This document shows positions 2,856 to 63,036 of a DNA stretch of 64,000 nucleotides, piece by piece; the first letter of the stretch is position 1, and each line of letters begins with the position of its first letter. A program made the translations under genes and the position numbers. Source of the DNA: Nanobdellota archaeon (GTDB lineage: Archaea > Nanobdellota > Nanobdellia > Pacearchaeales > GW2011-AR1). Location: NCBI GenBank assembly GCA_021799535.1, contig JAJZAH010000003.1, positions 62,001 through 126,000 of the forward strand. Direction: 5' to 3'. Below the pieces are notes generated by a model. It was given only the letters and a program-made list of their open reading frames with translations, was not told the DNA's origin and did not search any database.

Positions 2856-4813
2856 ATCCTCTTCCCCCTCAATAAATTTGCATTCGTGACAACAGTTATC
2901 GATGATAAAGCCATCGCAATCTCTGCAAATATTGGGTTTAAAACTCCCGCAACCGCAAGAGGGATCGCGATCGTATTGTAGATGAAGGCCCAGAATAAAT
3001 TCTGCTTTATTTTTGAAAAAGTAGCCTTCGAGAGTTCAATCGCCTTAGGAACCCCCATTAAAGATCCATTTGTTAAGATTATGTCACCCGCTTCTATAGC
3101 AATATCCGTCCCCGTACCCATGGCAATCCCAACATTCGCTTGTTTTAACGCTGGAGCATCATTAATCCCGTCACCTACAAAAGCAACAAGTCCATCCTTG
3201 CTTTCGGATTGGAGCTCGGAGACTTTTCTGGCTTTTTCCTCGGGCAGAACATTCGCAATTACTTTTTTTATACCGACGACTTTGGCTATCGCTTTTGCCG
3301 TTCTTTCATTGTCTCCCGTAATCATCACAGTACAATAATTTTTTTTATGCAGTTCATTTAAAGCCTCAGCGGAATCTTCCTTTACCGAATCGGAAAGCGC
3401 AAATACTCCATAAGCTTTTTTGTCCGTTTCACATGACAGGATTACCACCGTCTTTCCTTCATCTTCAAAGTGACTTATCTCCTTAGAAAATTTTTTAAGG
3501 TCTATCCCCGATTCAGTAATCAAACTTTTGTTTCCGATGAGGTATCTTTTTCCAGAAATGATGCCCTCCACCCCCTTACCTCGAAGGATTCTGAAATTAT
3601 TTACTGTCTTATAATTCTTCAATTTTGAATAATTTACAACTGTTTTAGATAAAGGATGCTCTGAAAGTTTTTCTAGACTTCCCGCAATTTCTAAAAATTC
3701 CTTCTTGGTCGTGTCACCGGAAATCTTGACATCGGTCACTTCAGGTTTTCCTTTTGTTATCGTACCCGTCTTGTCAAAAATTACAGTTCTGACTTCTTTC
3801 ATTGTTTGTATAGCTTCTCCTTTTCTTATTAAAATCCCTTTTTTTGCCCCCATACCTGATCCAACAGTAAGAGCAATCGGCGTCGCTAAGCCTAAAGCAC
3901 AGGGGCATGAGATGACAAGAACCGAGATAGCTGCCCCAAAAGCATAACTAAAACTCCCGAAAAAACTCCATGCTATGAAAGTTAAAACGGATATTCCCAG
4001 AACTAATGGGACAAATATCGCTGTGATTTTGTCTGCAAGTTTTTGTATCGGGACCTTGCTACTCTGCGTCTCTTCAACAAGTTCAATTATATGAGAAAGA
4101 AAAGTATCTGAACCCACCTTCAAGGCCTTGACATACAAAAATCCATCCTGATTTACTGTAGCTCCGATAGCGTTATCCCCTTTTCTTTTGTCAACGGGAA
4201 AGCTCTCGCCTGTAATCATGGACTCATCGATACTGCTTTCACCTTTTATTACAACCCCATCTGTCGGAATTTTCTCCCCGGGTTTGATTAGCATGATGTC
4301 TCCAACTCTCACCTTGGAAATAAGAATTTCAATTTCTTCCTTGCCTCTAAGTACCCTAGCATTCTTGGCACCCATCTCCAAAAGCTTCCTTATTTCCTGT
4401 CCGGCCTTCCCCCGGGCTTTTGATTCAATATATTTCCCTGTGACAAATATTGCCATAACCATCGCGGAAACTCCGGAATAATTTTGGATGCTAAGAAAGA
4501 AACTGAGTATACCGGTCAGATATGCAACAACTGTCCCAAGAGAAATGAGAGAGTCCATATTGAAATATAAGCTTAAAAGACCATGAAATCCGGATTTTAA
4601 TGTCTGAAGCCCTATTATGAATATGACAGGGAAAGATAAGACCAAAATTATCACAGACATCACACTTTCATCAAAAAGCATAAAGCCGAAAAGTTTCGTA
4701 ATATACATAAAAAAGATCACGGGAACCAAAATTATCCAGCTCCAAATAAGCTTTTTTTTCCACATCTTCGATTCCTCATCCTCTAATTTTCCGGTTTTAT
4801 TTTCTTTATCCAT
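2852..4813 (-). CDS. copA: Heavy-metal P1B-type ATPase, Cu(I)-exporting type
   Basis: CPC motif ([11 protein letters not shown]), [22 protein letters not shown] and [15 protein letters not shown]; no N-terminal HMA domain. Confidence 0.92.
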
Positions 4814-19989: not shown

Positions 19990-20115
19990 AGCGGGAGGAG
20001 GGAATCGAACCCTCGTTTTACGGATTTCGCGAGCCCGCTCGGAATTGCAAAGAGATTGCCCTTCGTAAACGTCGCTCACCACAACCGCACGTTCTGCCAC
20101 TGAACTACAGCCGCC
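19990..20115 (-). tRNA. tRNA-His(GTG), intron about 20025-20078
   Basis: D-arm GTTCAGTGGCAGAAC, anticodon stem TGCGG/CCGTA with GTG, T-arm GAGGGTTCGATTCCCTC; two acceptor mismatches. Confidence 0.75.
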
Positions 20116-25845: not shown

Positions 25846-26724
25846 CTAATTCTGGCTTTCCTCTGCGGCCACGTCTTCGGAGGGCTCGAACTCGTCAGTT
25901 AATAACTCTCCTTCTTCAAGGGTTTCCTCGCTCCAGTCACCGCTTTTCAGGTCTGCATAAGGGTCTGGGTTTTCTTTAAGAAATACTTTTTTAAGCCAAA
26001 TGTAGATTTCATCAAAATGTTTCTCCTGCTCAAGCCACACTTCTCCGTTGTTTTCAAGTTGGATCACCGGAAAAAATGAGAGTGCCCTCTCCTCCTTCTC
26101 TTTCCCCACTATCTCCGTATAAGGTACCTTTTTTTCCTCTTTGTTTGAGTCAAAATATCCCCTGATTTTCTCATGAATCCCTTTCATTTTGTTGATTATA
26201 CTGTATTTCCTCTTTGGAAGGCTTATTCCACTCTCCCGCAGCGCATTGTTATCCACAATCGCTTTTTTTATCCTCCTGTTTTCAGTTATTATCGCTTTGT
26301 TCAGAGATTCTATGAGTTCATTCAGAGTTACTTTTCTGAACCTTGGGACCGGGCTTCTAAGAACCAGTTCAGGAATCTCTTCTTCAAGTTCTATCCTCTC
26401 CATCTCTTTTGGTTTTTTCTCCTCTTTTTCACCAAAAAGGATGCTGTCTATGCTCTTCATGTAACGGCTAAGAAGGAGTTCGGATTTTATCCTAAGGAGA
26501 AGTGCAGCAGCCAAAAGCACTTTGCTTGAGATGAAAAAATCGGTCTCTTCATACTGCTGAATCCTCAGCAAAAAGCCTTCCGCAAGCCGCCCAATATCTA
26601 TATCCCACGGGTCAAGCTGCTCTGTATTGATCAGATCGTATATGATTTCTTTCCACCCTATCTCACGATTAAACAAAAGATCCTCAACCTCTTTCTGACT
26701 AACCGTCGACTTCACCCCGTCCAT
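25846..26724 (-). CDS. scpA: Segregation and condensation protein A
   Basis: LINTEQLDPWDIDIGRLAEGFL... and kleisin-type layout. Confidence 0.9.
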   Translation of the reverse strand: MDGVKSTVSQKEVEDLLFNREIGWKEIIYDLINTEQLDPWDIDIGRLAEGFLLRIQQYEETDFFISSKVLLAAALLLRIKSELLLSRYMKSIDSILFGEKEEKKPKEMERIELEEEIPELVLRSPVPRFRKVTLNELIESLNKAIITENRRIKKAIVDNNALRESGISLPKRKYSIINKMKGIHEKIRGYFDSNKEEKKVPYTEIVGKEKEERALSFFPVIQLENNGEVWLEQEKHFDEIYIWLKKVFLKENPDPYADLKSGDWSEETLEEGELLTDEFEPSEDVAAEESQN

Positions 26725-26840
26725 TTTTTGAAAAAGCTTCCAAGTTTTATAAATTTATTATATGAAAAGAGGAACGCCATGTCATTTTTAAAGAGTAACA
26801 TAATCGAAAGGTTTATATAGGGGAGTGACTACCAATTACT

Positions 26841-26915
26841 ATCACCTCTTTTTACCCAGGAGAGGACGCAAGTCATACTATTTGATTTGGCTTGAAGAAT
26901 CTCCTAGGTTTTTAT
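26841..26915 (+). ncRNA. Candidate structured small RNA
   Basis: CGAAAGGTTTATATAG promoter at about 26804-26820; stem CCAGGAGA...CAAGTC...GGCTTG...TCTCCTAGG then TTTTT; no ORF; between two minus-strand genes. Confidence 0.5.
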
Positions 26916-26934: not shown

Positions 26935-27408
26935 TCAGATTTTTCCTTTTACCAGTTTTTTGTAATCCCAGATTATGAAAGATATCACTATAAAATCGAT
27001 AATTGTAAGCAAGATGTAGAAAACTGAGTAAATTAACACCACAAGATAAATTTGATATATCAAAAAGGCTATCAGTATCCAAACTGCCAAAGGGTAAACC
27101 CAAACTTTTCTCTCGAGAAGCCCTGCAACTAAACCAAGCTTGATTATGCCATGCAATATGAGGAAGGCGGCCCAAAAATAATCTACCCCCTGAGGCATTG
27201 AAGAAAAAGTGTGTATAAGCGCATTCGCAAGCAGATCTTTGGGATCTTCAACAAGTTCATGCGAAAAAACTGCATTAAGGAGGCCAAGGATAGAACTAAG
27301 GGGAAAAAAGAGAAGGAACATTCCTGAAAACAGTTCAAAAAGACCATCAGCCCCTTTCAGAAAAAGGCTGTACTCATATGCAAGTCTGAATAGTTTCTTG
27401 AAATCCAT
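26935..27408 (-). CDS. DUF2127-like membrane protein
   Basis: LKGADGLFELFSGMFLLF...ALIHTFSSMPQGVDYFWAAFLILHGIIKLGLV. Confidence 0.8.
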   Translation of the reverse strand: MDFKKLFRLAYEYSLFLKGADGLFELFSGMFLLFFPLSSILGLLNAVFSHELVEDPKDLLANALIHTFSSMPQGVDYFWAAFLILHGIIKLGLVAGLLERKVWVYPLAVWILIAFLIYQIYLVVLIYSVFYILLTIIDFIVISFIIWDYKKLVKGKI

Positions 27409-32583: not shown

Positions 32584-32709
32584 TGGGCGCGGAGGGAATC
32601 GAACCCCCAATCTTTCGGTTACTCTCGAACTCGCTCACGATTACGGATTAATTTCCGCCCACGAACCCATTCACTGGAGCCGAACATTTTACCACTAAAC
32701 TACGCACCC
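32584..32709 (-). tRNA. tRNA-Trp(CCA), intron about 32620-32673
   Basis: Perfect acceptor GGGTGCG/CGCGCCC, anticodon stem TTCGG/CCGAA with CCA, T-arm GGGGGTTCGATTCCCTC. Confidence 0.92.
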
Positions 32710-48885: not shown

Positions 48886-49028
48886 TCCGCCCACCCAGAC
48901 TCGAACTGGGGATCTCTCGGGCACTGCTTAAGATCATGGCTTTTAGGGCTTCATCCAGTTTCCTTAACGGAATGTCCACCTTAGTTCTAAACTACAGCCA
49001 AGCGCTCTAACCACTGAGCTATGGGCGG
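48886..49028 (-). tRNA. tRNA-Tyr(GTA), intron about 48922-48991
   Basis: Acceptor CCGCCCA/TGGGCGG, anticodon stem CTTGG/CCGAG with GTA, T-arm CCCAGTTCGAGTCTGGG. Confidence 0.93.
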
Positions 49029-62650: not shown

Positions 62651-62715
62651 TTTGTTACTATTTATAAGATACGACATACCGAAAGATTTATATAGTCCGG
62701 GGGTATTAATTTAAT

Positions 62716-63036
62716 ATGAAAATGACTGAAAGTTACAAAGTAGATATAAAAGACCATAGCGGATTGTTTTCTAGGTGGAGGCCAAATGCATTTTTTGATT
62801 CAATAGAAAAACTTAATGAGTATATTACTCGAAGCACTGACACTAATAGGCTTGTATTACAAGGTAAAAAAGTGAAAGATAACGCAACAATACTAAAATT
62901 TTTGTACACCCCTTCGGTGGCTGAAGCTGAAGAACGAGGTATTAATTATCCCGGAATATTCATTTCATATAGAATTGTCCCAGTGTTGAAACTTGAAAAT
63001 ATAAAGAACGAAGGAGGAGCCGGAACTGGATATTAA
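62716..63036 (+). CDS. Hypothetical protein
   Basis: 106 aa; strong TATA gaaagatttatatag about 25 nt upstream. Confidence 0.65.
   Translation: MKMTESYKVDIKDHSGLFSRWRPNAFFDSIEKLNEYITRSTDTNRLVLQGKKVKDNATILKFLYTPSVAEAEERGINYPGIFISYRIVPVLKLENIKNEGGAGTGY

Follow-up and report, generated by a model that had tools for sequence, protein, structure and literature searches.

What lies between the two minus-strand genes scpA and DUF2127 in the 64,000-nt stretch of DNA analysed here (the window), and is it a gene in its own right? The scpA gene (25846-26724, minus strand; SMC_ScpA, Pfam PF02616, E 2.2e-11) is divergent from the element in question, and the gene for a DUF2127 membrane protein (26935-27408, minus strand; Pfam PF09900) is convergent with it. 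We consider it nearly certain, in the absence of expression data, that positions 26841-26914 of the plus strand are a real small non-coding RNA gene. The gene, its strand, promoter, structure, distribution and viral homologues are demonstrated by sequence analysis, and by that alone. The predicted RNA has about 74 nt, its start and 3' end being inferred, and is matched by our covariance models R1 (86.8 bits) and R2 (74.6 bits) at 26840-26915. It consists of a single-stranded and nearly invariant 5' tail, AUCACCUCUUUUU (26841-26853; alignments A1 and A3), a hairpin defined by fold and covariation (26854-26909), and a U-run (26909-26913), which is probably the termination site and is kept as GGGUUUU in the alignments. 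From the base upwards, the hairpin has a terminal helix ACC/GGU, bulges, the helix AGGAGA/UCUCCU, an internal loop, the helix CAAGUCA/UGGCUUG and a 12-nt loop. The host genome has a single copy of the element. A preliminary description of this DNA had proposed an independent structured small RNA at this place, with a plus-strand promoter between the minus-strand genes, a hairpin some 36 nt downstream, a TTTTT after it and no ORF to explain the region. All these elements were recovered: the fold agrees with the helices it named, and no ORF of at least 60 aa was found over 26736-26911 on either strand. The most conserved part, the unpaired tail, was missing from it.

The hairpin has an MFE of -20.9 kcal/mol on the plus strand (z -2.84, with 4 of 200 shuffles folding equally well), and the minus-strand fold is no improvement over shuffles (z 0.11). 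Over 99 sequences, 96.3% of the pair cells hold standard pairs, with a covariation score of 0.520 that falls to 0.168 when shuffled and to at most 0.150 when slid; the shuffled control leaves relatedness in place and the slid control retains it. When Pacearchaeal, Woesearchaeal and other copies are mixed, the score is 0.475 against 0.174. These alignments were fitted to model R1 and lean towards the structure; a MAFFT alignment predating any model has two-sided changes in 7 of 11 pairs. Compensatory changes in relatives, which the preliminary description had named beforehand as a test, were thus found far above both controls, which is one of the features required of a structured RNA gene. The stem cells contain 101 G-U and 12 A-C combinations, hence the plus strand is the RNA. 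Alignment of 40 loci revealed invariant CACCTC, TTT, CC and GG blocks, and four features stay constant across the phylum: the nearly invariant 5' tail, the terminal helix CC(C)/GG(G), a small loop inside the hairpin, and GGG-UUU. The remaining hairpin sequence varies freely. Many Woesearchaeal forms are about 54 nt long, some with UUCG-like loops, and some Woesearchaeota have two or three units in tandem behind a promoter 70-110 nt upstream, which indicates that the unit is modular.

The RNA gene is predicted, again from sequence evidence, to have a promoter of its own, with an activator-like site upstream. The BRE/TATA promoter CGAAAGGTTTATATAG (26805-26820, plus strand) is separated from the 5' tail by 20 nt, and the RNA start was placed at A26841, 29 nt from the first T of the TATA, because this is the usual archaeal distance. 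With up to 3 mismatches, CGAAAGGTTTATATAG has 5 matches in the 64-kb window where 0.65 are expected; CGAAAGATTTATATAG at 62680-62695 is the promoter of the gene at 62716, whose near identity had been pointed out in advance. The spacing to the RNA start is fixed in relatives: measured from AAANNTTTAWA, 85 of 98 copies have 32-34 nt; measured from the promoter AAA, most of the 40 aligned loci have 33 nt; and of 99 copies, 90 have a TATA-like hexamer at the fixed distance, against an expectation of 7.6. Further upstream, TGTCATTTTnnAAGAGTAACA is kept throughout the order, and profiling conservation over 98 upstream regions delimits, at positions -60 to -41, an imperfect dyad, TGTCATTTTTAAAGAGTAACA (26780-26800, plus strand), a probable transcription-factor site. 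A transcription factor is likely since similar dyad-like sites precede a few other promoters. Besides 26780-26800 in the window, the dyad-like GTCATT/GTAATT-N8-GTAACA was seen in relatives at L314, L321-L324, L316 (reverse side), L319, L331 and L335, several of these promoters belonging to protein genes. Some of the genes preceded by it encode small proteins that resemble, by eye, ribbon-helix-helix regulators. Promoters that share such sites may possibly form a regulon.

The element is widespread in the phylum. With 136 bases as query, blastn found it in 38 of 55 related genomes; within the class, model R1 has matches in 186 of 280 genomes, while R2, which takes in the shorter Woesearchaeal form, has them in 226 of 279 genomes of a phylum sample, including 183 of the 220 of good quality. 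The RNA is conserved across Pacearchaeales, and the shorter form across Woesearchaeota. Each positive genome holds 1-3 occurrences of a conserved 15-mer pattern, which in reversed form, as a control, has one match in 140 genomes. A pattern scan of 84,980 species genomes gave at least 80 loci. Among the matches listed (80 loci), nearly all are titled Candidatus Pacearchaeota, Woesearchaeota, Nanoarchaeota or "archaeon". A locus labelled Yanofskybacteria (L059) has no covariance-model match, and a 62-bit copy of the archaeal RNA on a contig labelled Bacteroidetes (L087, 3461-3539) probably lies on a mis-binned archaeal contig. More than 30 relatives have an orthologue at this location, and with the compensatory changes, the G-U excess and the well-placed TATA box these orthologues bear out the earlier proposal of an independent structured small RNA. 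The Rfam scan that it had recommended found no family at the gathering threshold of Rfam 15, tRNAs being the only matches in the window, and nothing on the strand of the RNA at E 10. We found no description of the RNA in the open-access literature (subscription journals and preprints were outside the scope). The RNA is best explained as a family, so far undescribed, of the phylum to which Pacearchaeales and Woesearchaeota belong. Few microbes are as diverse and as difficult to study as the DPANN archaea, and this RNA of theirs is outside every Rfam family.

Nearly all Pacearchaeal loci have the RNA in divergent orientation to scpA, and beyond it lie the genes for rpS27ae, rpS24e, Spt4 and Rpb7. 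The DUF2127 neighbour (cluster c25) is not kept, and was seen in only 2 loci. Neighbours differ in most Woesearchaeal loci, many of which have the RNA away from scpA. The constant location and the independent promoter fit the vertical inheritance of a separate gene.

The tail may point to the ribosome. It contains AUCACCUC, identical over 8 nt to the 3' end of archaeal 16S rRNA (GGAUCACCUCCU), and is complementary to GAGGUGAU; in 8 of the 10 relatives checked the 16S rRNA ends in GGATCACCTCCT. The two are nevertheless distinct, as the RNA is a separate gene that lacks the second C of CCUCC, and they differ in one genome, G021, where the 16S end has changed to AUUACCUCC and the RNA tail is still AUCACCUC. 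We rejected the idea that absence of the RNA tracks loss of the 16S anti-Shine-Dalgarno, since one genome, G056, lacks both, but other RNA-less families of the class retain an anti-Shine-Dalgarno in an intact 16S end. The 16S rRNA gene of G056 ends in GGATCTAGTTAATTCC (L182, near 2955-3010), and the anti-Shine-Dalgarno thus appears to have been lost in this member of the class.

Copies of the RNA are also found in viruses. Two scans of IMG/VR gave convincing model matches on about 15 viral contigs, and none of the contigs of the first scan carries the host neighbour genes. In six of them the RNA lies between the genes for the terminase large subunit and the portal, on their strand (L271 4983-5038, L272 6715-6766, L274 5472-5532, L267 6335-6388, L338 2325-2375 and L342 3533-3589). 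L281 and L279 each have one side of this arrangement; the RNA follows a head-tail adaptor in L273 and L285, is upstream of terL in L280 and L337, and is among tail genes in L282 and L276. A TATA-like box stands at the right distance in 8 of 15 viral copies, where 1.1 are expected. Other pattern matches overlap antisense ORFs and were rejected as chance (L268/L269, L283/L284, L336, L340, L343 and L344), L339 was set aside as chance for its low score, and L270 and L278 were left undecided. From the RNA alone, we infer that the contigs carrying it infect Pacearchaeota or Woesearchaeota; its recurrent place in packaging operons makes it a marker by which viruses of these hosts can be recognised, and the viral copies suggest that it matters during infection. 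GOLLD, a large structured phage-associated RNA, likewise lies among viral structural genes and occurs in host genomes. The archaeal RNA differs from it in having 50-80 nt, one hairpin and no Rfam match.

What might this RNA do? We rank highest, but only tentatively, the inference of a trans-acting regulator that works by means of the exposed and nearly invariant tail AUCACCUCUUUUU at its 5' end, by pairing with mRNAs or by imitating the 16S end. The freely varying hairpin and the U-rich end would be stabiliser and terminator. Action at translation would be likely because the tail is anti-Shine-Dalgarno-like, with its 8 nt identical to the 16S 3' end. It could pair with GAGGUGA-type sites in mRNAs, or a ribosome-associated factor could take it for the 16S 3' end. 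The viral copies near late packaging genes would presumably supply or redirect the same activity in infection. A more specific version, which we think somewhat unlikely, would have a nearly phylum-wide RNA that imitates the 16S 3' end, acts on ribosomes or a ribosome-linked factor where Shine-Dalgarno pairing is hardly used, and was acquired by viruses, which would carry it between terminase and portal genes and use it late in infection to control the host. More than 80% of the phylum's sampled good-quality genomes retain the RNA, with its 13-nt tail nearly invariant, and it probably has a basic role in these very small genomes.

The searches for targets were largely negative. Long perfect complements of the tail (AAAGAGGTGAT, 11-mers) are rare in most genomes and mostly inside ORFs, and we saw none recurring at a shared gene. 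With rough start calls, Shine-Dalgarno hexamers are enriched only slightly or not at all ahead of the starts in Pacearchaeal loci, which leaves few targets there for a global Shine-Dalgarno blocker; AGGTGA is slightly enriched before starts in Woesearchaeal loci, on equally rough calls. For 16S, 23S, RNase P and SRP RNA, conserved pairing did not rise above that of shuffled seeds. Also speaking against the trans-acting reading are the tail of G021, which has not followed its changed 16S end, and the families of the class that have an intact 16S end without the RNA.

The want of a conserved RNA target, in spite of a tail that is near-invariant across the phylum, leaves room for a protein-binding decoy or scaffold, which is possible although we have clear doubts about it. 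Single-stranded CACCUCUUUUU, with the hairpin and the U tail, would bind an RNA-binding protein, such as an Sm-like protein, a ribosomal protein or a 16S 3'-end processing factor, and extra copies, viral ones included, would titrate it. A U-rich single strand beside a stem is the kind of site bound by Sm-like proteins; the modular tandem copies in some genomes agree with such a role, and the viral copies are easily understood as titration. However, no protein partner has been identified, and most genomes have only one copy. This last feature, together with the wide distribution and the extreme conservation of the unpaired stretch, would also suit a housekeeping RNA with another fixed RNA partner, for example a tRNA, the target of a modification guide or a pre-rRNA spacer. 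We judge this improbable, as complementarity to the mature 16S, 23S, RNase P and SRP RNAs is not above controls and the hallmarks of guide RNAs are absent: an H/ACA or C/D guide RNA was rejected for lack of ACA or C/D boxes by inspection and of any Rfam snoRNA match on this strand at E 10. A substitute for RNase P or SRP RNA was rejected too, because both RNAs occur elsewhere in the genome of the window (G000), the SRP RNA match being below the family cut-off but with E 1.3e-19.

The viral contigs lend some support to a cis element, that is, the leader or terminator of a neighbour gene and not a separate RNA. In most of them the RNA lies between same-strand genes, and the portal ATG follows it by 4 nt in L338 and 3 nt in L342, hence a leader role in viruses is not excluded. 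As a general account it is nonetheless highly improbable: the downstream host gene is often on the opposite strand, 1-3 copies per genome are too few for a general terminator, and the promoter stands at fixed spacing. Finally, a minus-strand element serving as scpA promoter or leader has a negligible chance: the preliminary description had cautioned that TATAAAAA (26916-26909, minus strand) could be the scpA promoter, and scpA is indeed the constant neighbour of the RNA in Pacearchaeales, but scpA has a leaderless-type promoter of its own 29 nt upstream of the ATG at 26724, namely TTTATAAA (26753-26746, minus strand); many Woesearchaeota have the RNA at a distance from scpA; and the G-U excess, the TATA boxes and the failed minus-strand fold assign the conservation to the plus-strand RNA.

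As for the trans-acting reading, the anatomy of the RNA resembles that of known small regulatory RNAs, while it is a member of none of the families tested. The alpha-r14 / cuckoo sRNAs of proteobacteria (NfeR1) similarly combine an ultraconserved unpaired anti-Shine-Dalgarno-like motif with freely differing stems and repeated units (PMC10746234). Their motif, however, is CCUCCUCCC, in the unpaired regions of three hairpins, whereas the archaeal RNA has AUCACCUCUUUUU 5' of its hairpin; membership was rejected, as the CCUCCUCCC motif is not in the unpaired regions of this hairpin. These sRNAs are bacterial, homology is neither claimed nor found, and Shine-Dalgarno use is weak in the archaeal hosts. 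In Archaea, the single-stranded region of sRNA162 of Methanosarcina mazei masks a ribosome binding site (PMC3510493). No relation in sequence or structure is expected, and the target of the present RNA is not known.

Two observations concern the assemblies and the window. L173 (4024-4300) has the RNA and its promoter twice, in identical form, on either side of a stretch of N; the second copy may be an assembly duplicate. Among the Rfam matches in the window are three tRNA genes missed by ARAGORN (19990-20114, 32584-32709 and 48886-49028 (minus)). Their matches extend over 125-143 bases, compared with the 71 positions of the model, which suggests that these three genes carry introns.
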